A stretch of DNA of 64,000 nucleotides. It comes from Agrococcus sediminis (GTDB lineage Bacteria; Actinomycetota; Actinomycetes; Actinomycetales; Microbacteriaceae). The position numbers and the translations under genes were made by a program. Below the pieces are notes generated by a model that was given only the letters and a program-made list of their open reading frames with translations, did no database searches and was not told the origin of the DNA. Where the stretch lies: positions 1 to 64,000 of the forward strand of contig NZ_VOIR01000019.1 in NCBI RefSeq assembly GCF_007923295.1. The letters run 5' to 3'. Of the stretch, positions 35,365 to 48,146 are shown piece after piece. Position 1 is the stretch's first letter; each line of letters starts with the position of its first letter.

Positions 35365-36296
35365 GCGCCGCCGAAGCGATCCCGACCGTCCCCGTCCCCG
35401 AGGGCGACGCCGGGCAGCCCCGCCGCTCCGGGAGCTTCTGGGGCGACGTGCTGCGGCGGCTGCGCCGCAACCCCGCCGCCTGGATCGGCGCGGTCGTCGT
35501 CAGCCTGTTCGTGCTCGTCGCGCTGCTCGCGCCGGTGCTCGCGCCCTACCCCGAGCTCGCGACCCCGGGCGCGGGCCTCCGGCTGCCGACCTACCTGCCC
35601 GGCCCGGGCGAGGTGCCCGACTTCCCGCTCGGCATCGACCGCTTCGGCGGCGACGTGCTCTCGAAGCTCATCTGGGGCGCGCAGGCGTCGCTGCTCATCG
35701 GCGTGGCCTCGACCTTCTTCGGCCTGCTCGGCGGCATGGTGCTGGGCGCCCTGGCGGGCGCGTTCGGCGGATGGGTCGACACCCTCATCATGCGGGTGGT
35801 CGACATCCTGCTGTCGGTGCCGCACCTGCTGCTCGCGGTCTCGATCGCCGCGGTGCTCGGCCGCACGCCGCTCGCGGTGATGATCGCCATCGGCGTCGCG
35901 CAGGTGCCGATCTTCGCGCGCCTGCTGCGCTCGTCGATGCTGCAGCAGCGCGGGTCCGACTACGTGCTCGCCGCCCGCACCCTGGGCCTCGGCACCGGTC
36001 GCATCACGATGACGCACCTGCTGCCGAACTCGGTGGGCCCGGTGATCGTGCAGGCGACGCTCACGCTCGCGACCGCGGTCATCGACGCGGCGGCGCTGTC
36101 GTTCCTCGGCCTCGGCGGCGGGCGGCCCGAGACGGCCGAATGGGGCCGCATGCTCACCTACGCGCAGGCGGAGCTCGCGATCGCGCCGTGGCTCGCGTTC
36201 CTGCCCGGCATCTGCATCATGATCGCCGCGCTCGGCTTCACGCTCCTCGGCGAGGCGCTGCGCGAGGCGATGGACCCCCGCACCCGCAAGCGCTGA
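35361..36296 (+). CDS. Peptide ABC transporter permease (DppC/OppC-like)
   Basis: Second permease, 311 residues with six membrane segments. The first helix is IGAVVVSLFVLVALLAPVLAP. FPLGIDRFGGDVLSKLIWGAQASLLIG and YVLAARTLGLGTGRITMTHL are OppC landmarks. It converges on the fused ATPase gene; the hairpin at 36308-36330 lies between. Together with DppB it forms the channel. Confidence 0.93.
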   Translation: MSAAEAIPTVPVPEGDAGQPRRSGSFWGDVLRRLRRNPAAWIGAVVVSLFVLVALLAPVLAPYPELATPGAGLRLPTYLPGPGEVPDFPLGIDRFGGDVLSKLIWGAQASLLIGVASTFFGLLGGMVLGALAGAFGGWVDTLIMRVVDILLSVPHLLLAVSIAAVLGRTPLAVMIAIGVAQVPIFARLLRSSMLQQRGSDYVLAARTLGLGTGRITMTHLLPNSVGPVIVQATLTLATAVIDAAALSFLGLGGGRPETAEWGRMLTYAQAELAIAPWLAFLPGICIMIAALGFTLLGEALREAMDPRTRKR

Positions 36297-36307
36297 GCGG
36301 CCCAACT

Positions 36308-36330
36308 CCGGGGGCCGTCCCGGCCCCCGG
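36308..36330. terminator. Hairpin between permease and ATPase genes
   Basis: A perfect 10-bp stem ccgggggccg/cggcccccgg with a 3-nt loop, serving two convergent genes. Confidence 0.8.
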
Positions 36331-36354
36331 TCTGCCAGCGCCCGCTGCGGGGGC

Positions 36355-38001
36355 TCAGCTCGCGATCTGCAGCTCGTTGCCGGGGATCGAGGCGAGGAGC
36401 CTCCGCGTGTACGGGTCGCGCGGGTTCGTGAAGATCTCCTCGCTCGTGGCCGCCTCGACGAGCCTGCCGTTCTGCATCACCGCGACGTAGTCGCTGATGA
36501 GCCGCACGACGGCGAGGTCGTGCGAGATGAAGAGGTAGCTGAGCCCGAGGTCGCGCTGCAGGTCGCCGAGCAGCCGCAGGATCTGGTCCTGCACGAGCAC
36601 GTCGAGCGCCGACACCGGCTCGTCGCAGACGATCACGTCGGGGGAGAGGGCGAGCGCGCGGGCGATCGCGACGCGCTGGCGCTGACCGCCGGAGAGCTCC
36701 GACGGGTAGCGGCGCGCCATGTCGGCCGGCAGGGCCACCTGGTCGAGCAGCTCGCGCACGCGGCGCTGGCGCTCGAGCTTCGACCCCTTGCCGTAGAACG
36801 ACAGCGGCTCCTCGACGATGCGCTCGATCGTGAACATCGGGTTGAGCGACGAGTACGGGTCCTGGAACACCGGCTGCACGCGCTGGCGGAACTCCTTCTG
36901 CTCGTCGCGGGAGAGCGCGAAGACGTCCTTGCCCTCGAAGCGCACCGTGCCGCTCGTCGGCTCGAACGCCTTCAGCAGCATCCGCGCCGTCGTCGTCTTG
37001 CCGGAGCCGGACTCGCCGACGATGGAGACGGTCTTCCCGCGCGGCACCGAGAGCGACACGTCGTCGACGGCCTTGAAGGGCTCGCGCCGGCCGCGCACGT
37101 GGAACTCCTTGGTCACGTGCTCGAACTCGACGATCGTGTCGGGCGCCTCCGAGGCATCCGCCCCGCCGTGGCTCGCGAAGTCCTCGGGCCGCAGCCGCGC
37201 CATCGCGACCGACGGCGCCGCCTTCACGAGCGACTGCGTGTACGGGTGCTGCGGCGCCTCGAGGATCTGCTTCGCCGGGCCCTGCTCGACGACGCGGCCG
37301 CGGTGCATGACGACGACGCGCTGGGCGCGCTCGGCGGCGAGCCCCAGGTCGTGCGTGATGAGGAGCACCGCGGTGCCGAGCTCCTCGGTCATCTGCTGCA
37401 GCTGGTCGAGGATGGTGCGCTGCACGGTCACGTCGAGCGCGCTCGTGGGCTCGTCGGCGATGAGCAGCTGCGGGCGGCACGCGAGGCCGATGGCGATGAG
37501 CGCGCGCTGGCGCATGCCGCCCGAGAACTCGTGCGGGTACGACTTCGCGCGCTCGGCGGCATCGGGCAGCCCGGCCGCCTCGAGCGTCTCGACGACCTTC
37601 TGGTCGACGGTGCGGCGGTCGGCGAGCCCGTGCGCGAGCAGCGTCTCGGCGACCTGCGTGCCGATGCGCGCGACCGGGTTGAGGTTCGACATCGGGTCCT
37701 GCGGCACGAGCCCGATGCGGCGGCCGCGCACCTTGCGCATGGCGCTCTCGCTCGCGCCGACGAGCTCCTCGCCGTCGAGCCGGATGCTGCCCGCCGTGAC
37801 GCGGCCGTTGCCCGACAGCAGGCCGATCACGGCCATCGCGGTGGTCGACTTGCCCGAGCCCGACTCGCCCACGATCGCGAGCGTCTCGCCCGCGGCGAGC
37901 GAGAGGCTCGCCTCGTGCACTGCCGTGACCGTGCCGTCCTGGGTCGTGAACTCCACCTTGAGTCCGGAGACCTCCAGCAGCGGCTTCTTCGCGTCGCTCA
38001 T
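36355..38001 (-). CDS. Fused dual-domain peptide ABC transporter ATPase (DppD-DppF-like)
   Basis: A 548-residue protein with two complete ATPase domains in one chain. Domain 1 has Walker A GESGSGKST at 45-53 and signature FSGGMRQR; domain 2 has Walker A GESGSGKTT near 331 and signature LSGGQRQR. Each has its own DEPTSALD or DEPVSALD Walker B, and each ends with the peptide-importer C-terminal extension. It should power the DppBC channel as an internally fused heterodimer. It is on the opposite strand to the permeases, so it has its own promoter. The start ATG is at 37999-38001; five residues upstream another ATG is possible. Confidence 0.93.
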   Translation of the reverse strand: MSDAKKPLLEVSGLKVEFTTQDGTVTAVHEASLSLAAGETLAIVGESGSGKSTTAMAVIGLLSGNGRVTAGSIRLDGEELVGASESAMRKVRGRRIGLVPQDPMSNLNPVARIGTQVAETLLAHGLADRRTVDQKVVETLEAAGLPDAAERAKSYPHEFSGGMRQRALIAIGLACRPQLLIADEPTSALDVTVQRTILDQLQQMTEELGTAVLLITHDLGLAAERAQRVVVMHRGRVVEQGPAKQILEAPQHPYTQSLVKAAPSVAMARLRPEDFASHGGADASEAPDTIVEFEHVTKEFHVRGRREPFKAVDDVSLSVPRGKTVSIVGESGSGKTTTARMLLKAFEPTSGTVRFEGKDVFALSRDEQKEFRQRVQPVFQDPYSSLNPMFTIERIVEEPLSFYGKGSKLERQRRVRELLDQVALPADMARRYPSELSGGQRQRVAIARALALSPDVIVCDEPVSALDVLVQDQILRLLGDLQRDLGLSYLFISHDLAVVRLISDYVAVMQNGRLVEAATSEEIFTNPRDPYTRRLLASIPGNELQIAS

Positions 38002-38038
38002 CCGACCATCTTGCACTGCCGCCGGGAACTTCGCTGGA

Positions 38039-38992
38039 TCAGCGCACCCGCAGCACGAGCTTGCCCCGCACGTGCCCGCCCTGCAGCACGCCGAAGGCCT
38101 CGTGCACGCGGTCGAGCGGGTAGACGCGCTGCACCTCGACGCGCACGTCGCCGGCGTCGATGAGGCGGCCGATGATGCCGAGGTTCGAGCCGTCTGCCTC
38201 GACCTTCACCGACGACGCGCGCATCCCGCGCTCGGCGGCGGCGGATGCGTAGTCGGGCCAGGAGCCGGTCGGCACGTTGAGGTAGAGCCCGCCGTGCTTC
38301 AGCGCGTCGAGCGAGCGCGTGCCCGTCTCGTCGGCCACGTTGCCGACGAGGTCGACGACCACGTCGACCTTCTGCAGCACGTCCTCGAAGCGCTCGCTCG
38401 TGTAGTCGATGACCTCGTCGGCGCCGAGCGACCTGGCGAAGTCGACGTTGCGGGTCGAGACCGTCGTGGCGACGTGGGCGCCGAAGTACTTCGCGAACTG
38501 CACGGCGAAGTGGCCGACGCCGCCGGCGCCGGCGTGGATGAGGATGCGCTGGCCCGCGCGCGCCTTCGCGACGCGCACGACCGCGTCCCACGCGGTGAGC
38601 GCCGCGCACGGCACCGCCGCCGCCTCCTCGAAGGTGAGCGACTCGGGCTTCGGGGCGAGCGCGAGGCTCGGCACGATCGCCTGCTCGGCGTACGACCCGC
38701 GGGTGCGCCAGTGGTTGACGATGCCGTACACGGCGTCGCCGGGCTGCACGTCGTGCGCCTCGTAGGGCGACTCGGCGACGATGCCGGCGACGTCGCCGCC
38801 CGGCACCCACGGCAGCAGCGGCTCGACGGCCTTCGCGGCGCCCTTGCCGATGACCGTCTTGTAGTCGATCGGGTTCATGCCGGCCGCGTGGACGTCGACG
38901 AGCACCTCGGTCCCGAGCTTGAGCGGAGCGTCGATGTCGCCGATCTCCACCTGGTCCGTCGGCCCGAACTCCCGCACCAGCACTGCGCGCAT
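38039..38992 (-). CDS. NADPH:quinone-type oxidoreductase (MDR zinc-less alcohol dehydrogenase family)
   Basis: Medium-chain reductase of 317 residues. The GroES-like N-terminal domain reads MRAVLVREFGPTDQVEIGDI and HAAGMNPIDYKTVIGKG. The nucleotide-binding motif is AGAGGVGHFAVQFAKYFGA near 150-168. The zinc-binding Cys residues of classical alcohol dehydrogenases are absent. It likely reduces quinones or enones with NADPH. GGAGGGAAG precedes the ATG at 38990-38992. Upstream, a divergent gene starts at 39096. Confidence 0.88.
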   Translation of the reverse strand: MRAVLVREFGPTDQVEIGDIDAPLKLGTEVLVDVHAAGMNPIDYKTVIGKGAAKAVEPLLPWVPGGDVAGIVAESPYEAHDVQPGDAVYGIVNHWRTRGSYAEQAIVPSLALAPKPESLTFEEAAAVPCAALTAWDAVVRVAKARAGQRILIHAGAGGVGHFAVQFAKYFGAHVATTVSTRNVDFARSLGADEVIDYTSERFEDVLQKVDVVVDLVGNVADETGTRSLDALKHGGLYLNVPTGSWPDYASAAAERGMRASSVKVEADGSNLGIIGRLIDAGDVRVEVQRVYPLDRVHEAFGVLQGGHVRGKLVLRVR

Positions 38993-39083
38993 CGCACTTC
39001 CCTCCACGTCGCCTCGACGCTAGCGCACGCGTGTGACGCCCAGATGTCGAGATGACGACATGTGACCGCAGGGCCGCCGCGGC

Positions 39084-39089
39084 TACAGT
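39084..39089 (+). promoter_or_regulatory. Likely -10 box of the DUF998-like gene (TACAGT)
   Basis: TACAGT stands 6 nt before the GTG at 39096. Confidence 0.45.
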
Positions 39090-39095
39090 GCTCGT

Positions 39096-39806
39096 GTGCT
39101 CCAGCGCCCCCGGACCGCCGACGTCGCCGTCGCCGCCCTCGCCGTCGCGAGCCTCGTCGCGGGCGCGGTCGTCATCGGCGACGCGCGCGCGATCTACGAG
39201 CGCCACCTCTACATCTCCGAGCTCGGCGCCGAACACATGCGCTCGGCCGCGCAGTTCCAGGCCGGGTTCGTGCTCGTCATCGCCGGCATCCTGCTCGTGG
39301 CCGTGTCGGTGCGCGACGTGCGCACCCGGCTGCCGGTGCTGCGGCTGTGGGCGCCGTCGGCGGCGCTCGTGGTCGCGGCGACGCTCTTCCTCGTCGCCGC
39401 GGCCGTGCCGTGCTCGCCCGGCTGCCCGTCGCTGCTCGGCTCGGAGGCCGAGCCGCGCGACTGGGTGCACATCGTCGCGGCGGTGCTCGGGTTCGTCGCG
39501 GGCTGCCTCGCGATGCTGCAGTTCGCCACCGCGCGCGACCGCTGGGTCGCCCGGCTCTCGACGGCGGGCGGGCTCGCGGTCGGCGTGATCGCCGCGACCG
39601 GCGGCATCATCTCGCTCGCGCGCGGCAACACCGACATCGGCTCGGCCATGGAGTTCGTCGCGGCGGGGCTCGGGGTGCTGTGGATGATCGCGGTGACGGT
39701 CGTGCACACGCTGCCGCACGCGGCGGCGGATGCGTCGGAGCCGGTGCGCGCGCGGTCCCGCGGCGGCGCGGTGCCGGTGGGGGCGGCCGCGCGCCTCGAG
39801 GACTAG
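39096..39806 (+). CDS. DUF998-like membrane protein
   Basis: A 236-residue membrane protein with six hydrophobic segments, at about 8-28, 52-72, 85-105, 125-145, 155-172 and 185-205. The pattern SELGAEHMRSAAQFQAGFVL with a following VPCSPGC and WVHIVAAVLGFV fits the DUF998 family, for which no function is known. The last 30 residues are a charged tail. Its stop overlaps the convergent hydrolase stop (shared CTAG). Confidence 0.7.
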   Translation: MLQRPRTADVAVAALAVASLVAGAVVIGDARAIYERHLYISELGAEHMRSAAQFQAGFVLVIAGILLVAVSVRDVRTRLPVLRLWAPSAALVVAATLFLVAAAVPCSPGCPSLLGSEAEPRDWVHIVAAVLGFVAGCLAMLQFATARDRWVARLSTAGGLAVGVIAATGGIISLARGNTDIGSAMEFVAAGLGVLWMIAVTVVHTLPHAAADASEPVRARSRGGAVPVGAAARLED

Positions 39807-40546
39807 CCGATCCCCACCAGGAAGCTCGCCAGCTGCTGCCGGAACCACGCGTACATCGCGGCCTCGCCGTCGTCCCGCGCGGGCGAGACGAGCATCCGGC
39901 ATCCCAGCTCGTCGCGCCACGCCTCGGCGACGTGCAGCGGATGCACGGGGTCGCGGGGGCTCGCGAGCACGACCGTCGGCGCGGGGATGCGCAGCTCGCC
40001 CGGGCGGTAGGCGATGTTCCGCGGGATCTCGAGCAGGCGGATGCGCCGCTCGGCCGCGAGCGGCTGCGTCAGCTGCGCCTCGAGGCCGCGCGCGTGCGCG
40101 AGCGACTCGTGCGCGACCGCGCGCCAGGCGCCCGAGCGGTGCAGCTCGTCGAGCGCCCGCTGCGGCCGGTGCTCCTCGAGCAGCCGCCCGAGCAGCGGGA
40201 AGATCGCGAGGTTCGGCGGCAGCGGCTCGGTCGTGAAGGCGGGGCGGATGAGCGCGACGCGGTCGAGCGGGAACCGCCCGGAGCGCGCGATGCTCGCGGC
40301 GAGCGCCGCGCCGAGCGAGACGCCGACGATCGTCACGGGGGAGCCGTCGCCGACGCGCACGAGCTCGTCGGCCACCTCCGCGGCGAGCGCCTCGAGCGCG
40401 AAGCGATCCGGCTCGCCGATCAGCGTGCTCGCGCCGTGCGCGCGCAGGTCGGGCGCGAGCACGCGCACGCCCGCGGGCACGGCTCCCTCGAGGTAGGCGC
40501 GCATCGCGCCGGCGTCGGAGCCGAGGCCGTGGATCGCGAGCAGCAT
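39803..40546 (-). CDS. Alpha/beta hydrolase
   Basis: A 247-residue esterase-like protein. The oxyanion region is LLAIHGLGSD at the start, the nucleophile elbow is VGVSLGAALA near residue 75, and a possible acid/His pair lies near ASPRDPVHPLHVAEAW. It begins with ATG overlapping the stop of the upstream nuclease gene by one base. Substrate unknown. The convergent DUF998-like gene shares its stop region. Confidence 0.82.
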   Translation of the reverse strand: MLLAIHGLGSDAGAMRAYLEGAVPAGVRVLAPDLRAHGASTLIGEPDRFALEALAAEVADELVRVGDGSPVTIVGVSLGAALAASIARSGRFPLDRVALIRPAFTTEPLPPNLAIFPLLGRLLEEHRPQRALDELHRSGAWRAVAHESLAHARGLEAQLTQPLAAERRIRLLEIPRNIAYRPGELRIPAPTVVLASPRDPVHPLHVAEAWRDELGCRMLVSPARDDGEAAMYAWFRQQLASFLVGIG

Positions 40547-41142
40547 CAGCCGCGCAGGAGCTCGAGCAGCCGATCCGCGCGGTCGACGAGCATCGCGATC
40601 TCGTCCTCGTCGCGCTCGACCCAGACGTGCCTGGGCGGGCCGACGGGCACGAAGTGGCTGTGCTGCTCCCAGACGAAGAGGGTGCGCTCGGCGCCGAGCA
40701 CGTACTGCTGCCACCAGATCTGGCGCAGGTACTGCTTCGGCACCCGGTCGAACGCCTTCGAGGTCGTCTTGATCTCGGCGAGCACCGTGCCGTCGTCGCT
40801 CACGCAGTCGGGCGTCGCGAGGTGGTCGCGCTGGCGCACGGAGTGGAAGAGCGCATCCGACGGCACGAGCGAGAAGTGGTCGTGCACCCAGCGGGCGATG
40901 TGCGGCTCGCGGGCGCGGCCGTGGTCGGTGAAGGCGTTGCCGGAGAAGCCGCGGAGGCCGAGCTTCTCGCGCGCGACGGCGGCGACGGCGGCCGAGGTGC
41001 TGAGCCTCGCCGCGTCGGTCGCGGTGACGCCGCGCGAGCGGGCGCGCAGCCACGCGATGCGGTCGCTCGAGCGGGCGACGATGCGGCTCGTGTGCCCCAA
41101 CAGCGACGGCTCGTCGCCGAAGATGTCGAGCTGGAGCTGCAT
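40546..41142 (-). CDS. YqaJ-type PD-(D/E)XK exonuclease with clamp-binding-like N-terminus
   Basis: A 198-residue nuclease of the YqaJ/lambda-exonuclease group. The catalytic residues are all visible: Glu in GRAREPHIARW near 76-86, Asp in HLATPDCVSD near 110, Glu-x-Lys in VLAEIKTT near 120-127 and Gln in QYLRQIWWQQYV near 137-148. The first ten residues, MQLQLDIFGD, contain QLDIF, close to the sliding-clamp consensus QL(S/D)LF. There is no annealing protein or other phage gene beside it. It forms a one-base TGATG overlap with the hydrolase gene. A housekeeping role in DNA repair is an inference. Confidence 0.85.
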   Translation of the reverse strand: MQLQLDIFGDEPSLLGHTSRIVARSSDRIAWLRARSRGVTATDAARLSTSAAVAAVAREKLGLRGFSGNAFTDHGRAREPHIARWVHDHFSLVPSDALFHSVRQRDHLATPDCVSDDGTVLAEIKTTSKAFDRVPKQYLRQIWWQQYVLGAERTLFVWEQHSHFVPVGPPRHVWVERDEDEIAMLVDRADRLLELLRG

Positions 41143-41227
41143 GGCTCCATCGTCCCACGCGGGGCCCACCCGGCTCGCCGCCATGCCGCGTCCGCGCGCC
41201 CGGCTCCCGACGTGGTGGGATGACCCC

Positions 41228-42232
41228 ATGGCAGACCGCTACGACGAGCGCGACGAGGCCGAGCAGGTCGAGGCGCTGCGGCCGATCGCGCTGCGGGCCG
41301 CGGAGGCGTTCGGGCTCGACGTGGCGCGCATGGAGGTGGTGCTGCACGCCTACAACACCACCTTCGCGGTCGACGACGCCGGCGGGCGCCGGTTCGCCGT
41401 GCGGGTCGGCACGAACTCCGGCAGCACGCCGGCGAACGCCATCGCGCAGCAGGCGTGGGTGCGCGCGATCGCCGAGCAGACCGACGTCGTGGTGCCGGTG
41501 CCGCTGCGCACCCGGGACGGCGCATGGTTCGTCGAGTCGGATGCGCAGGTGCTGGGCCGCCCGGTGCTCGTCACGATCGCGAGCTGGCTCGAGGGCGACG
41601 ACGCCGACGCGCTCACCGCGGACGCCGCTCGTGCGCTCGGGCGGACGATGGCGGCGCTCCATGCGCACGCCGGAGGATGGACGCTGCCGCCCGGCGGCGA
41701 GCTGCCACGCTTCGACCGGCCGCTCTTCGGCGATGAGGACGCGCTGGATCGTGCGCCGGGGCTCTCCGCGGTCGACCGCGCCGTGCTCGCCGATGCCCGG
41801 GCTCGCGCGGAGGAGGTGTTCGAGCGCCTGCACCGGGGCGCCGAGCTGCGACCGCTGCACGCCGACCTCCATGGCGGCAACCTCAAGTGGCATCGCGGGC
41901 GGCTCGCCGTGTTCGACTTCGACGATGCCGGCCTCGGGCTGCCCGTGCTCGACCTCGCGATCTCGGCCTTCTACCTGCGCGCCGACGAGCCGGTGCAGGA
42001 GGAGGCGATGCTCGAGGGCTACGCCGAGGTGGCGCCGCTGCCGGACATCCTGCGGGCCGACTTCGAGGCGCTCGTCGCCGCGCGCCAGCTGCTGCTCGCC
42101 AACAGCCTGCTCGTCACCACGACCGCAGACCTCCGCGCGCAGTCGGGCGAGTACACCCGCGTCTCCGTCGCGAGGCTCCGGCACTGGCTCGAGACCGGGG
42201 TGTTCACGAGAGCGCTGCCCGACGCGGCGTGA
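41228..42232 (+). CDS. Aminoglycoside phosphotransferase-fold kinase
   Basis: A 334-residue APH/choline-kinase-fold protein. The catalytic loop is LRPLHADLHGGNLKWHRG near 214-231 with the HxDxxxxN core, and AVFDFDDAGLG near 234-244 carries the metal Asp. The N-terminal region (YNTTFAVDDAGGRRFAVRVG) is the ATP-binding sheet. Substrate is unknown; homoserine, sugars, choline and antibiotics are all used by the superfamily, and no resistance context is seen. It is divergent from the YqaJ nuclease, with 85 bp between starts. Confidence 0.8.
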   Translation: MADRYDERDEAEQVEALRPIALRAAEAFGLDVARMEVVLHAYNTTFAVDDAGGRRFAVRVGTNSGSTPANAIAQQAWVRAIAEQTDVVVPVPLRTRDGAWFVESDAQVLGRPVLVTIASWLEGDDADALTADAARALGRTMAALHAHAGGWTLPPGGELPRFDRPLFGDEDALDRAPGLSAVDRAVLADARARAEEVFERLHRGAELRPLHADLHGGNLKWHRGRLAVFDFDDAGLGLPVLDLAISAFYLRADEPVQEEAMLEGYAEVAPLPDILRADFEALVAARQLLLANSLLVTTTADLRAQSGEYTRVSVARLRHWLETGVFTRALPDAA

Positions 42233-42302
42233 TCGCGTGAGGGCAAGCGCACAGGAAGCGCAAAGGATAAGGTCGGATCGACCCACAGGAGACTCTGGCG
42301 GA

Positions 42303-43055
42303 ATGGATGGCATGACCGACACCGCTCAGCAGCAGCTGCGGGCACAGCCCCGCCTCACCCGCCCGGATGGCTCGCCCATCCGCGTCGTCGTCGTCGACGA
42401 CGAGCAGAGCCTCGCTGACCTCGTCGCCATGGGCCTCAAGTACGAGGGCTGGGACGTGAAGACCGCCGCCAACGGCCAGCAGGCGCTGCAGGCGGTGCGC
42501 GAGTTCCGCCCCGACGCGGTGGTGCTCGACATCATGCTCCCCGACATCGACGGCCTCACCGTGCTGCAGCGCCTGCGCTCGGCCGGCTTCGACGTGCCGG
42601 TGCTCTTCCTCACGGCCAAGGACTCGCTCGACGACCGCGTCGCCGGGCTCACCGCCGGCGGCGACGACTACGTCACGAAGCCCTTCGGGCTCGAGGAGGT
42701 CGTCGCGCGCCTCCGCGGCCTGATCCGCCGCACCGCCCAGACCGCCGAGGAGTCGAGCGTGCTCTGGGTCGGCGACCTCATGATGGACGAGGACTCCTAC
42801 GAGGTGCGCCGCGGCGGCCAGCAGGTCGACCTCACCGCCACCGAGTTCGAGCTGCTGCGCTACCTCATGCGCAACCCGCGCCGCGTGCTCTCGAAGGCGC
42901 AGATCCTCGACCGCGTCTGGTCGTACGACTTCGGCGGGCGCGCGAGCGTCGTCGAGCTGTACATCTCCTACCTGCGCAAGAAGATCGACACGCTCGGCCC
43001 GCCCATGATCCACACCGTGCGCGGCGTCGGCTACCAGCTGCGCGCGGCTGAGTGA
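42303..43055 (+). CDS. Response regulator, OmpR/PhoB family
   Basis: A two-domain regulator of 250 residues. The receiver has RVVVVDDEQSLADLV near 26-40, phospho-acceptor Asp in AVVLDIMLPDIDG near 76, and Lys in VTKPFGLEE. The winged-helix DNA-binding domain starts near SVLWVGDLMMDEDSYEVRRG and ends GVGYQLRAAE. It is followed after 34 bp by its sensor kinase. The start at 42303 has AGGAG upstream; an ATG at 42312 is equally possible. Target genes unknown. Confidence 0.93.
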   Translation: MDGMTDTAQQQLRAQPRLTRPDGSPIRVVVVDDEQSLADLVAMGLKYEGWDVKTAANGQQALQAVREFRPDAVVLDIMLPDIDGLTVLQRLRSAGFDVPVLFLTAKDSLDDRVAGLTAGGDDYVTKPFGLEEVVARLRGLIRRTAQTAEESSVLWVGDLMMDEDSYEVRRGGQQVDLTATEFELLRYLMRNPRRVLSKAQILDRVWSYDFGGRASVVELYISYLRKKIDTLGPPMIHTVRGVGYQLRAAE

Positions 43056-43089
43056 GCCGGCGCCCGCAGCGCACCCGCCTCCTGCACCC

Positions 43090-44610
43090 GTGACCCAGCC
43101 CGCAGCCGCGACGCCCCAGACCCGACGCATCCAGAACCCGTCGTCGTGGTCGCTGCGCCGACGGCTGCTGGTGGTCGTCGTGGCGCTGTTCGCCCTGCTC
43201 ACCGCGGCGGTGGCGATCGCGAGCGTCATGACGATGCGCGTCGTGCTCGAGACGCGCGTCGACGAGCAGCTGACCGAGATCGCGAGCCGCACCGCGACCG
43301 ACGTCGAGCGCGCGCTCGCGACCGGCACGCAGGCGCCGCTCGACCCGCGCACGGCGCCGACCGCCACGCTCATCGCCATCGAGCAGGGCGGCGACCTGCG
43401 CCAGGCGTTCATCCTCACGAGCATCGGGCAGCAGCTCGCGCTCTCGGCCGCCGACGAGCGGGTCGTGCTCGGCACCGGCTCCGACGGCATCGTCAACGAG
43501 TCGCTGCCGACCTACGGCTCCTACCGCGTGATCGCGCACGACGTCGGCGGCGGGGCGCGGGTGATCGTCGGGCTGTCGATGTCCGAGACCAACCAGACGC
43601 TCGCGGCGCTCGCCTTCGTGATCGCGGTCGCGGCGTTCGCCGCGGTCACGATCGTGCTGCTGCTCGGCGACATGATCATCCGGCGCGCGCTGCGGCCGCT
43701 CACCTCCGTCATCGCCACCACCGAGCGCATCTCGCAGCTGCCGCTCGCCTCGGGCACCGCGCAGCTGACCAACCGGGTGCGCATCGAGGAGCCGGCCTCG
43801 GAGGTCGGCCGCGTGCAGGAGAGCATGAACCGCATGCTCAACCACATCGAGCAGGCGTTCGAGGCGCGCTCGGCGAGCGAGCGCCGCGTGCGCCAGTTCG
43901 TCGCCGACGCCTCGCACGAGCTGCGCACGCCGCTCGCCGCGGTGCGCGGCTACGCCGAGATCACGCGCAAGCACGACGGCGACCTGCGCCCCGACACCCG
44001 AGAGTCGCTCGAGCGCATCGAGGCTGCCGCGCAGCGCATGCAGGCGCTCGTCGACGACCTGCTGCTGCTGGCGCGGCTCGACGAGGGCCGCGAGCTCGAG
44101 CGGGGCGAGGTCGACCTGTCGCTGCTCGTCATCGAGGCGGTCGCCGACGCGCAGGCCGCGGGCCGCTCCCACCCGATCGCGCTCGAGCTGCCCGAGGAGC
44201 CCGTGGTGGTCGCCGGCGACCCGCTGCGGCTGCAGCAGGTCGTGGCGAACCTGCTCGCGAACGCCCGCGTGCACACGCCCGAGGGCACGCCCGTCGACGT
44301 GTCGCTGCGCACCGAGGGGGAGGAGGCCGTGGTCGAGATCGTCGACGCGGGCCCCGGCATCCCCGACGAGCTGCAGCAGACGGTCTTCCAGCGCTTCGCG
44401 CGCGGCGACACCTCGCGCTCGCGCGCGACGGGCTCGTCGGGGCTCGGGCTCGCGATCGTCGAGGCGCTCGTCGACGCGCACGGGGGCACCATCGCGCTCG
44501 AGAGCGAGCCGGGGCGCACAGCGTTCACCGTGCGCCTGCCGCTGTGGGGACGGGCGGCGGGGTCGGATGCGCCGGACGCCGAGGGCGCGGAGCTCCGGCA
44601 GCCGTCGTGA
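43090..44610 (+). CDS. Sensor histidine kinase
   Basis: Membrane sensor of 506 residues. Two hydrophobic segments (about 24-52 and 174-197) flank an extracytoplasmic domain of about 125 residues with no recognised fold. The HAMP linker follows, then the H-box FVADASHELRTPLAAV with His near 276, the N-box LLANARVHT near 396-404, and DAGPGIPDEL and GSSGLGLAIV of the ATP lid. It partners the upstream regulator. The C-terminal 25 residues are an acidic tail. The pair resembles the TcrXY/MprAB type, but the stimulus is unknown. Confidence 0.93.
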   Translation: MTQPAAATPQTRRIQNPSSWSLRRRLLVVVVALFALLTAAVAIASVMTMRVVLETRVDEQLTEIASRTATDVERALATGTQAPLDPRTAPTATLIAIEQGGDLRQAFILTSIGQQLALSAADERVVLGTGSDGIVNESLPTYGSYRVIAHDVGGGARVIVGLSMSETNQTLAALAFVIAVAAFAAVTIVLLLGDMIIRRALRPLTSVIATTERISQLPLASGTAQLTNRVRIEEPASEVGRVQESMNRMLNHIEQAFEARSASERRVRQFVADASHELRTPLAAVRGYAEITRKHDGDLRPDTRESLERIEAAAQRMQALVDDLLLLARLDEGRELERGEVDLSLLVIEAVADAQAAGRSHPIALELPEEPVVVAGDPLRLQQVVANLLANARVHTPEGTPVDVSLRTEGEEAVVEIVDAGPGIPDELQQTVFQRFARGDTSRSRATGSSGLGLAIVEALVDAHGGTIALESEPGRTAFTVRLPLWGRAAGSDAPDAEGAELRQPS

Positions 44611-44624
44611 CCGACGGGGCCGGC

Positions 44625-44654
44625 TTGCGCCGCGCATCCGTCGTGCCGTAGTCT
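44625..44654 (+). promoter_or_regulatory. Promoter of the rplJ-rplL operon
   Basis: TTGCGC (44625-44630) and TAGTCT (44649-44654) are separated by 18 bp and precede the L10 leader directly. Confidence 0.6.
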
Positions 44655-44660
44655 TGCCGC

Positions 44661-44802
44661 ATACCAAAGACCGCTGGTCGTCGGCGTGTGCCCGCAAGGG
44701 GATGTGCCGACCGAAGGCTCGCTCGAGGAGCGTCGTCCCGCGCAGGTGCTGAAAGATCCGTCGAGATCCCAGAGCTCCGTGCGCGTGCGCCGGAGCTCTT
44801 TT
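44661..44802 (+). ncRNA. L10 leader with attenuator-like hairpin
   Basis: The 5' leader of rplJ matches the actinobacterial ribosomal protein L10 leader: accaaagaccgctggtcg, a central stem with cccgcaagggg, and gcgcaggtgctgaaagatc near 44739-44757. L10 bound to L12 grips this RNA to repress its own operon. It ends with an agagctccg/cggagctct hairpin (44771-44799) followed by TTTT, rare in so GC-rich a genome, pointing to transcriptional attenuation as well. I judge this from sequence similarity, not a covariance search. Confidence 0.85.
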
Positions 44803-44845
44803 GCATGAGTGGGCCAGGGAAGCCGGCAACGACGCAAGGAGCACC

Positions 44846-45364
44846 ATGGCGAACAAGGAAGCTGCGGTCGCCGAGCTCTCGAACCTCTTCGAGACCTCGA
44901 ACGCCGTTCTGCTGACCGAGTACCGCGGTCTCACCGTCGGCCAGCTGAAGACGCTGCGCCGATCGATCAGTGAGCACGCGACGTACGCCGTGGTGAAGAA
45001 CACGCTCACCAAGATCGCAGCCAACAACGCCGGCATCACGGCGTTCGACGAGTCGCTTGCCGGCCCGTCCGCGATCGCATTCGTGCACGGCGACCCTGTC
45101 GCCGTCGCGAAGGAGCTGCGTGCCTTCGCCAAGGCGAACCCGGCGCTCGTGGTCAAGAACGGTTTCTTCGACGGGAACCCGCTCACGGCCGACGACGTCA
45201 ACAAGCTCGCCGACCTCGAGTCGCGGGAGGTGCTGCTGGCCAAGCTGGCAGGTGCCTTCAAGGCCTCGCTGTTCGGCGCTGCATACATGTTCAACGCCCC
45301 GCTCGCCCAGGCCGCTCGCGCGGTCGACGCGCTGCGGGTCAAGCAGGAGTCCGCGGCCGAGTAG
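44846..45364 (+). CDS. rplJ: 50S ribosomal protein L10
   Basis: A 172-residue stalk-base protein. [20 protein letters not shown] and [16 protein letters not shown] are diagnostic. The C-terminal helices bind L12 dimers. AAGGAG lies before the ATG. It is the first gene of rplJL, downstream of the L10 leader. Confidence 0.98.
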
Positions 45365-45397
45365 GCAGCGGTCGGTACCAGAAACAAGGAGAAGACG

Positions 45398-45781
45398 ATG
45401 GCAAAGCTGTCGACTGACGAGCTGCTCGAGCAGTTCAAGGAGCTCACCCTCATCGAGCTCAGCGAGTTCGTGAAGAAGTTCGAGGAGACCTTCGAGGTCA
45501 CCGCCGCCGCTCCCGTCGCCGCCGCTGCAGCCCCCGCTGCCGCTGCTGCTGCGGAGGAGGTCGAGGAGAAGACGGACTTCGACGTCATCCTCGAGTCCGC
45601 CGGCTCGGCGAAGATCCAGGTCATCAAGGTCGTCCGTTCGCTGACGTCCCTCGGCCTCGGCGAGGCCAAGGCGCTCGTCGACGGCGCTCCCGCCCCCGTG
45701 CTCGAGGGCGCCAAGAAGGAGGACGCCGAGAAGGCCAAGGCCGACCTCGAGGAGGCCGGCGCGACGGTCACGCTCAAGTAG
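45398..45781 (+). CDS. rplL: 50S ribosomal protein L7/L12
   Basis: A 127-residue stalk protein. An N-terminal dimerisation helix is followed by an Ala-rich hinge (about 35-53), then the C-terminal domain with [20 protein letters not shown] and [13 protein letters not shown] that recruits translation GTPases. GGAGAAG precedes the ATG. A strong terminator follows. Confidence 0.98.
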
Positions 45782-45798
45782 CGTTCCCCGCACCATCG

Positions 45799-45832
45799 CG
45801 AAGGGCCGCTCCCGTGAGGGGGCGGCCCTTCG
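45799..45832 (+). terminator. Terminator after rplL
   Basis: The arms cgaagggccgc and gcggcccttcg pair, with ccc/ggg inside, around a GTGA-type loop. Confidence 0.85.
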
Positions 45833-45872
45833 TCATGCGCCTGCGGCGCGCTGCCGCGCAGGCGCGACGGGA

Positions 45873-45878
45873 TACCGT
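45873..45878 (+). promoter_or_regulatory. Likely -10 box of the ABC exporter gene (TACCGT)
   Basis: TACCGT stands 6 nt before the GTG at 45885. Confidence 0.45.
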
Positions 45879-45884
45879 GGCCAC

Positions 45885-47741
45885 GTGAGCATGGGCATGG
45901 GCGGCGGTCGCCGGGGCGGGGTCGGCATGCGCGACGAGTCGGCGCAGCGCGCCGCCAACGCGAGCGCTCCCCGCGTGCCCGACCTCGGCAAGCGCATCCT
46001 GGGCCTCTTCCGCCCCCACCGGCCGCAGATCGTGCTGACGATCGTGCTCGTGCTGATCGTCGCGACGATCGCGGTGTTCCCGCCGCTGCTGACCCAGCGC
46101 GTCTTCGACGAGGCGCTGTTCCCGCCCGAGGGCGGCCCCGATCTGCGGCTGCTCTGGATGCTCGTCGGCACGATGGTGGCGCTGTGGATCTCGTCGAGCC
46201 TGCTCGGCATCTGGCAGACGCTCATCACGTCGAAGGTCGGCAACCGCGTCATGGGGCAGCTGCGCGACTCGCTGTTCGACCGGCTGCAGAGCATGGAGCT
46301 CGCGTTCTTCACCCGCACGAAGACGGGCGTCATCCAGTCGCGGCTGCAGAACGACGTCGGCGGCGTCGCGAACGTGCTCTCCAACACCGTCTCGTCGGTC
46401 GTCGGCAACACCGTCACGGTGATCGCGAGCCTCGTGACGATGCTCATCCTCTCGTGGCAGCTGACGGTCATGGCGGTGCTGCTCACGCCCGTGCTCGTGC
46501 TGCTGCAGCGCCGCGTCGGCCAGGTGCGCGCCCGCATCGCGACGCAGACGCAGGAGTCGCTGAGCGAGATGACGGCGATCACGCAGGAGTCGCTGTCGGT
46601 GTCAGGCATCCTGCTCGCGAAGGCGTTCGGCCGGCAGGCCGACGAGTCGCGCCGCTACGCCGCCGAGAACGAGCGCCAGGTCGACCTGCAGGTGCGGCTG
46701 ACGATGAGCGGCCAGACTTTCTTCGCGCTCGTGTCGGTCTTCATCTCGATCCTGCCCGCCGTCGTCTACGTGCTCGCCGGCTACCTGATCGCCGGCGGCG
46801 ACACCGGCGTCACGGCCGGCACGCTCGTCGCGTTCACGACCGTGCAGGCGCGGCTGCTCATGCCGCTCATGGGCCTGCTGCGCGTGGGGCTCGACCTGCA
46901 GACCTCCGGCGCGCTCTTCGCCCGCATCTTCGAGTACCTCGACCTGCAGCCGGCGATCGAGCCGCCGACGTCGCCGCGCCCGCTCGACCGCTCGCGCCTC
47001 GGCGAGGTGGAGTTCGACGACGTGCGCTTCCACTACCCGGATGCGCGCGAGGGCGAGCGGGCGACGCTCGACGGCGTCTCGTTCCGGCTCGAGCCGAGCA
47101 CCTTCGCGGCCTTCGTCGGTCCCTCGGGCGCGGGCAAGACGACGATCGGGTACCTGCTGCCGCGCCTGCACGAGGCGAGCGGCGGAGCGGTGCGCTTCGC
47201 GGGCACCGACGTGCGCGAGCTCGACCCGGCGGCCCTCACCGACCACATCGGCATCGTGAGCCAGGAGCCGTACCTGTTCCACGCGTCCATCGCCGAGAAC
47301 CTGCGCTACGCCAAGCCCGACGCGACCGACGTCGAGCTCGACGCCGCCACGCGCGCCGCGAGCATCTACGACACCATCCACCGGTTCCCCGACGGCTACG
47401 ACACGATCGTGGGCGAGCGCGGCTACCGGCTCTCGGGCGGCGAGAAGCAGCGCATCGCGATCGCGCGGGTGCTGCTGAAGGACCCGGCGGTGCTCGTGCT
47501 CGACGAGGCCACGAGCGCGCTCGACACCGTCTCGGAGCGCGTCGTGCAGGGCGCGCTCGACGAGGCGGCGCGCGGCCGCACGACGCTCGCGATCGCGCAC
47601 CGGCTCTCGACCATCCGGCACGCCGACGTCATCTTCGTCATCGACGCCGGCCGCATCGTCGAGCAGGGCGCGCACGACGAGCTGCTCGCGCTCGGCGGCA
47701 CCTATGCGACGCTCTTCGCGCAGCAGGCCTCGCGGGTCTGA
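45885..47741 (+). CDS. ABC exporter, fused membrane and ATPase domains
   Basis: A 618-residue half-transporter. A Gly-rich N-terminus (MSMGMGGGRRGG) precedes the membrane domain of six helices (about 48-330). The ATPase has Walker A GPSGAGKTT near 414, signature LSGGEKQR near 516 and Walker B VLVLDEATSALD. It should act as a homodimer, exporting lipids, peptides or drugs. The GTG at 45885 is supported by the -10 box. No partner gene is next to it. Confidence 0.9.
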   Translation: MSMGMGGGRRGGVGMRDESAQRAANASAPRVPDLGKRILGLFRPHRPQIVLTIVLVLIVATIAVFPPLLTQRVFDEALFPPEGGPDLRLLWMLVGTMVALWISSSLLGIWQTLITSKVGNRVMGQLRDSLFDRLQSMELAFFTRTKTGVIQSRLQNDVGGVANVLSNTVSSVVGNTVTVIASLVTMLILSWQLTVMAVLLTPVLVLLQRRVGQVRARIATQTQESLSEMTAITQESLSVSGILLAKAFGRQADESRRYAAENERQVDLQVRLTMSGQTFFALVSVFISILPAVVYVLAGYLIAGGDTGVTAGTLVAFTTVQARLLMPLMGLLRVGLDLQTSGALFARIFEYLDLQPAIEPPTSPRPLDRSRLGEVEFDDVRFHYPDAREGERATLDGVSFRLEPSTFAAFVGPSGAGKTTIGYLLPRLHEASGGAVRFAGTDVRELDPAALTDHIGIVSQEPYLFHASIAENLRYAKPDATDVELDAATRAASIYDTIHRFPDGYDTIVGERGYRLSGGEKQRIAIARVLLKDPAVLVLDEATSALDTVSERVVQGALDEAARGRTTLAIAHRLSTIRHADVIFVIDAGRIVEQGAHDELLALGGTYATLFAQQASRV

Positions 47742-47768
47742 CGCGCCGCGCCGGCGGTGCCGGCGACG

Positions 47769-48146
47769 TCAGGCGGATGCGTCGGCGTCGACCTCGTCGA
47801 GGCCCGGCAGGTCGGCGGTCGCCTCGCGCCACCGCCGCTCGAGCTCCTCCATGTCGGCCGCGTAGTCGCTGTAGCGGCAGCCGAGCCCGTTGGGCTTCAC
47901 GCGGATGCCCTCCTCGCGCCAGTGGGGGAGCGCGCGCTGCAGCAGGTCGCCGCCGAAGTCGCCGGCGTGGCTCGTGATGCGCCACCACGGCAGGCCGTCG
48001 CTGTAGTGGCGGAGGATCGAGCCGACCTGCCGCGGACCGATGCCGCAGATGCGGGCGACGGCGCCGTACGAGGCGACGCGGCCGGGCGGCACGAGCTCGA
48101 CGCAGCGCAGCACGCGCTCGATCACGAGCTCCCGTCTGGCGTCCAC
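47769..48146 (-). CDS. Alkyltransferase-like protein (MGMT family without catalytic Cys)
   Basis: A 125-residue protein of the O6-alkylguanine DNA transferase C-terminal domain fold. The DNA-binding helix-turn-helix is PPGRVASYGAVARICGIGPR near 20-40. In MGMT the motif is PCHR; here it reads LPWWRITSHAG near 53-63, with Trp where the reactive Cys would be. Such ATL proteins bind alkylated guanine and flag it for nucleotide excision repair. GTG at 48144-48146 preferred (GAGGA upstream); another GTG at 48164 adds six residues. Divergent from cbs. Confidence 0.85.
   Translation of the reverse strand: MDARRELVIERVLRCVELVPPGRVASYGAVARICGIGPRQVGSILRHYSDGLPWWRITSHAGDFGGDLLQRALPHWREEGIRVKPNGLGCRYSDYAADMEELERRWREATADLPGLDEVDADASA

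Follow-up and report, generated by a model that had tools for sequence, protein, structure and literature searches.

A chromosomal lambda-exonuclease-fold nuclease of Microbacteriaceae with a clamp-like N-terminal peptide

Does an exonuclease of phage type, standing alone in a bacterial chromosome, work from the replication sliding clamp? The question is raised by a gene in the window, by which we mean the whole 64,000-nucleotide stretch of Agrococcus sediminis DNA analysed here. The original prediction described its product as a lone YqaJ-type nuclease with a clamp-binding motif at a free N-terminus, and suggested that it might act in repair or against foreign DNA.

Fold, active site and gene layout

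The product, translated from the minus-strand frame (Table 1), begins MQLQLDIFGDEPSLLGHTSRIVARSSDRIAWLRAR, the MQLQLDIFGD start that had been predicted. Its assignment as a YqaJ-type nuclease holds, with a match to Pfam YqaJ (PF09588) above the curated cut-off (25.8 bits against 22). PHROG 434 (RecE-like exonuclease) also matches (76.2 bits, 5.3e-21), and NCBIfam TIGR03033 (lambda-exonuclease) gives 24.5 bits, below its cut-off of 68.05. The nuclease site is complete, as predicted: E79, D112, E123 and K125 (PD-(D/E)XK site), which we take to be the equivalents of the lambda exonuclease active-site residues, are unchanged across all 95 aligned homologues. In an AlphaFold monomer model built from these 95 homologues, pLDDT is 93.9 for the whole nuclease and averages 55 for residues 1–10, and the N-terminus is predicted to be disordered, with residues 1–10 unpacked. 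The solved fold closest to the model is LHK-Exo (Z 19.4, rmsd 2.4, 167 aligned); lambda exonuclease gives Z 17.5 and rmsd 2.9 (177 aligned). A sequence search against solved structures was uninformative, with a single match at E 0.9.

The nuclease is a single-copy gene in its own genome, among genes for a phosphotransferase, a response regulator, a sensor kinase, an alpha/beta hydrolase, a DUF998 protein and an alcohol dehydrogenase. As read from the sequence, its overlap with the hydrolase start spans window positions 40544–40548, which suggests translational coupling of the two genes in this genome, where they are likely co-transcribed.

Table 1. Features of the nuclease locus (window coordinates)
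Feature	Position	Strand	Remarks
Chromosomal YqaJ/lambda-exonuclease-fold nuclease, 198 aa	40546..41142	-	Including stop codon
QLDIF, clamp-binding-like motif, residues 4–8	41119..41133	-	CAGCTCGACATCTTC, same in 15 distinct Agrococcus-type sequences
Motif-bearing N-terminal peptide of the Agrococcus nuclease			MQLQLDIFGDEP, aromatic residue F8
Linker and first turn, residues 9–26, between motif and conserved core (D27)	41065..41118	-	
Span of invariant catalytic residues E79, D112, E123, K125	40768..40908	-	95-sequence alignment
Block 5′ of nuclease start, probable -10 box (leaderless mRNA; inferred)	41147..41157	-	TGGGACGATGG
Alpha/beta hydrolase	39803..40546	-	Its ATG overlaps the nuclease stop (TGATG)

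Phylogenetic range and gene context

Microbacteriaceae are a family of soil and plant bacteria. Matches at E 0.001 or better occur in 340/398 Microbacteriaceae genomes and 79/85 genera, and orthologues (E below 1e-50) in 321/398 genomes and 74/85 genera, the rest of the 340 being distant paralogues or split matches. Beyond the family, no orthologue was found in at most 184 other-family genomes of the order (a sample of 198 with 14 in the family; 153 genomes without a match were unlisted, so that 184 is a maximum), and 11 of these other-family genomes hold only a distant homologue (35–47% identity, 72–109 bits). In the phylum sample, 0/197 other genomes match at 1e-10. One genome carries a 39-aa match (62%) on the opposite strand, adjoining its orthologue, that resembles a partial inverted copy (G296:C19:150068-150184, orthologue at 149501-150046).

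The surroundings of the gene are also widely shared. Among the 91 of 122 loci with at least 5 kb on each side, 66 have at least one of nusG, rplK, rplA, rplJ and rplL near the nuclease, as do 24/35 genus representatives. By counts of occurrences, rplJ lies upstream of the nuclease in 34/37 loci and rplL in 26/27, while rplA (54/55), rplK (53/54) and nusG (46/47) lie downstream. The window copies of rplJ and rplL occupy approximately 44843–45781.

Lambda exonuclease works with an annealing partner. Here the nuclease is on its own: RecT and ERF each have 0 matches in its genome, in line with the prediction that no phage recombination genes surround it. Across 30 genomes RecT was found in 2 and ERF in 1, and all three adjoin a distant paralogue rather than the orthologue. 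A Red/RecET-type pair of exonuclease and annealase was rejected as an account of the orthologue, which does not lie beside RecT or ERF, the families searched. The three paralogues next to RecT or ERF (G035:C1 ~1358758-1360391, G057:C7 ~508888-510856 and G017:C1 ~139359-140347) are arranged as in phage recombination modules, and among phage homologues ERF or RecT is the next gene in 5/6.

That the gene is a relic recently left by a phage, with no function in the cell, is scarcely tenable. Although the family is of phage type, as the PHROG 434 match indicates, and 85 phage records have homologues, the best phage identity is 38.5%, against 49–91% among Microbacteriaceae orthologues. Furthermore, the catalytic residues are invariant, the gene is family-wide and no plasmid homologue was found. 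Window positions 36158–48000 have no near match among phage records. The nuclease is a host gene, not phage cargo.

The same observations bear on defence. One possibility is that the enzyme acts against phages or plasmids, locating foreign DNA during its replication by way of the clamp, as a nuclease at the fork could do; overexpressed Mpr exonuclease, which may or may not be kin to this family, leads to phage resistance in M. smegmatis (PMC11504140). However, PADLOC gave no match for the nuclease or for 5/6 neighbours, and the sixth, the response regulator, matched SduA only weakly (18.1 bits), a match that Pfam accounts for; this was all that the proposed check for defence genes nearby brought up. 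Moreover, unlike mobile defence genes, this one is present in nearly all of the family and mostly keeps its neighbourhood. We dismissed anti-phage defence on these grounds, and the suggested role against foreign DNA is very improbable.

The N-terminal peptide and the start codon

The position of the peptide depends on where translation starts. The block TGGGA(C/G)(C/G)ATG ends 5 bases before an ATG/GTG in 18 Agrococcus-type loci with 15 distinct sequences, and this ATG/GTG coincides with the window nuclease ATG. A related block followed by ATG/GTG precedes the nuclease in 45/73 genera, in the nuclease frame in 45/45; shuffled controls average 0.19 and never exceed 2. In these 45/73 orthologues the conserved block is of the type (G/C)A(G/C)(A/G)AT(A/G)G and lies 3–6 bases 5′ of the start. 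This block is likely a -10 box from which a leaderless mRNA would be transcribed. With the start codon so placed, only a few residues precede the motif. Neither an SOS box nor a PafBC box was found at a shared place upstream of the orthologues, loose matches occurring in 6 and 9 of 73, respectively, so damage induction is not indicated and a damage-inducible promoter found no support.

For the peptide itself, 73 genera were read with one orthologue each: the window plus the 72/80 other genera that yielded an orthologue (at least 179 bits). These 80 came from 84 other sampled genera; g11, g16 and g81 (first genome without a match) and g84 (orthologue) were left out, and for g6, g14, g54 and g74 a first genome without a match was replaced by one with a match. 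A clamp-like core (LxL[FW], QPxLW, LxFPW or QLDIF) lies near the N-terminus in 43/73 genera, compared with ~1 by shuffling. With one regular expression in a fixed 48-residue stretch the count is 42/73 rather than the 43/73 of the longer stretch (shuffle mean 1.09, maximum 6 in 1000 shuffles), and narrow LxL[FW] alone occurs in 29/73 (shuffle mean 0.44, maximum 3). An earlier pattern had also given 42, with one false match, that of L131, which lies upstream of the start and was removed by hand. Because we broadened the patterns with the N-terminal sequences already in view, and because the genera are related, these counts are not independent trials. In same-length windows of neighbouring proteins, the broad motif occurs in 100/4444. 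The motif occurs within 78 residues in 49/80 named loci, a set collected in part with the pattern MQLQLDIF; one of the loci, L035, also has QLDIFG farther upstream.

The forms met include QLDIF, QPTLDLW, QPMLSLW, QPMLPLW, MLSLF, LLDLF, LxFPW, QPALW and FALF. Among the 43 genera, 23 have forms ending in W, 11 end in F and 9 have LxFPW, for which we know of no clamp-binding precedent. The distance from the motif to the conserved core (D27) ranges from 16 to 56 residues, and D or E directly follows the aromatic residue in 37/43. Within Agrococcus, the five motif codons are identical in the 15 distinct sequences while flanking residues and linker length vary; the identical nucleotides could also reflect codon preference or constraint at the DNA level. 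The motif was found in none of 17 prophage-type paralogues (L183, whose frame is unreadable, and L221, a repeat of L189, were left out), none of 11 homologues from other families and none of 6 phage homologues, and thus goes with the domesticated gene.

Conversely, 30/73 genera have no motif and retain the gene, so the motif is not required for every function. On a tree with many weak branches (36/70 drawn open), its absence is clustered (7 changes compared with 23.5 for shuffled labels), which fits loss in a few lineages, gain and loss being indistinguishable by this measure; on the same tree its form changes 17 times among four classes. A C-terminal clamp motif is no general substitute in the genera without an N-terminal one, appearing in only 1/73 (L138), where REPLLSLDF resembles a clamp hexapeptide relocated from the N-terminus. 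Other orthologues have the C-termini YYRPGPLA, YYRPSVLA and VYRPGALA, or (F/Y)RALAL(A/S/V)(D/E) (L149, L197, L199, L200, L204; L173, L198, L201-L203, L205-L207); in a Leifsonia-type group that lacks LxLF, ELYRPGVLADL lies close to the N-terminus (L125, L048, L049, L055). These YRPG- and RALAL-type stretches look like a second short motif that switched ends.

Invariance of the pentapeptide, which an alignment of orthologues was to reveal, is not what we found. Literal QLxx[FW] occurs in 2/43 motif-bearing genera, and the published consensus beginning with Q is matched by a pentapeptide in 0/73 genera, by a hexapeptide in 1/73 and, with W or I allowed, in 2/73; with 0 to 2 of 73 genera, the strict pentapeptide was dismissed as the conserved unit. 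Of the predicted clamp motif at a free N-terminus, what stands is a clamp-like peptide in more than half of the genera on a poorly ordered tail, and what falls is the conservation of QLxxF. As far as comparison of orthologues can tell, the clamp-like finding is real and better than chance, and the motif is variable rather than an invariant pentapeptide. An alternative in which the motif of a host exonuclease is a functionless hydrophobic patch, arisen by chance or drifting, is improbable; the 30 genera without a motif and the frequent shifts of form are what it would lead one to expect, but the count in the fixed stretch far exceeds the maximum of the shuffles, the motif is kept ahead of a linker of very different lengths, and altered forms retain the hydrophobic-aromatic pattern.

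Known clamp clients give a measure of how far a clamp motif may vary. In the clamp consensus the last two positions weigh most and Q is not absolutely required, according to a portion of PMC13254535. In the same genera, 24 DinB sites (recovered from 30) have xxxLW in 23 and LF in 1, just after the little-finger domain, a place that leads us to infer that this stretch is the DinB clamp site. Q comes first in 7/24 of these sites, and 13/24 match the full pattern set used for the nuclease (for example, QLSLWDPDEDW). NucS is present in 30/30 genomes searched, and its tails end in LF in 26/26 recovered from 30 (RLF in 24).

These comparisons also bear on a further alternative, in which the peptide is a real conserved motif that binds another partner, either a repair protein or the nuclease's own core in an oligomer. 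The canonical Q is lacking in nearly all rows, the acidic residue after the aromatic is outside what the clamp consensus requires, and the AlphaFold model is a monomer, all of which leave room for such a partner. However, the core LxL(F/W) matches QLPLWG of ImuB (seen in part of PMC10421592), the DinB site of the same genera also has acidic residues after LW, and residues 1–10 are unpacked in the monomer model. We regard another partner as unlikely, although it is an alternative to be taken seriously.

Possible function and comparison with known systems

Together, our results suggest that a lambda-type exonuclease was domesticated in Microbacteriaceae and in many lineages became linked to the sliding clamp, where it would trim DNA ends in replication-linked repair; judged from sequence, this is probably the best explanation. 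A role at the replication fork or in repair is plausible. The N-terminal peptide would sit in the hydrophobic pocket of DnaN, as the peptides of ImuB, NucS and RecB do, and the tail would keep the exonuclease at clamps left on newly made DNA. So tethered, the enzyme could trim 5′ ends at gaps, nicks or breaks and leave 3′ tails, and these tails or gaps might pass to RecA or a polymerase. Lineages without the peptide would keep the enzyme untethered or tether it otherwise.

Our most specific guess is that the nuclease resects breaks that clamp-bound NucS makes at mismatches. The exonuclease, wired to the clamp and domesticated in the ancestor of Microbacteriaceae, would then be the end-resection step after NucS, both on the same clamp ring, a proposal that is tentative and, as it stands, doubtful. 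Repair of NucS-made breaks is called unknown in a section of a 2021 review (PMC8228993); if true, our proposal offers a concrete candidate for the step after the NucS mismatch cut, within one bacterial family only.

The nuclease appears to be an addition and not a replacement, because its host genomes also have PDDEXK_1 (PF12705) proteins, probably of the AdnAB type. These were matched in 20/20 genomes with the gene and in 18/20 without it, where the two genomes lacking a match have a completeness of 78% and 84%, and on these counts we dismissed a substitute for a missing RecBCD/AdnAB-type enzyme.

Clamp-linked nucleases (RecB, NucS) and lambda-type exonucleases are each known; searches of the open PMC literature gave no paper on a YqaJ nuclease together with the bacterial clamp. 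Should the tail bind DnaN, one short extra peptide would have made a fork-associated repair enzyme out of a phage recombination enzyme, and Microbacteriaceae offer natural variants with and without it.

In fold, catalytic residues and core size the nuclease is like lambda exonuclease and LHK-Exo (YqaJ, PF09588). Those enzymes belong to phages or prophages, whereas the Microbacteriaceae nuclease is chromosomally encoded family-wide, lacks a RecT or ERF partner and carries a clamp-like tail at its N-terminus. The likeness to RecBCD lies in a DNA-end nuclease bearing a short clamp-type motif, since E. coli RecB is linked to the sliding clamp by QVEMEF; that motif is internal, in a helicase-nuclease, whereas the Microbacteriaceae motif lies in a free tail at the N-terminus of a nuclease that stands alone (RecB as described in a portion of PMC13254535). 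NucS/EndoMS of Actinobacteria is likewise an actinobacterial nuclease with a short terminal clamp-type peptide that does not need an initial Q, binding the clamp via a tail of the form [E/K][L/Y][T/R]LF, but it is a mismatch endonuclease of another family and its motif is C-terminal (from part of PMC8228993). Finally, mycobacterial ImuB binds the clamp by QLPLWG, a motif with W as the last aromatic residue, as in MLPLWDEP and QLPLWGEE among the nucleases; unlike the nuclease, ImuB is a polymerase-like scaffold with an internal motif (from part of PMC10421592).
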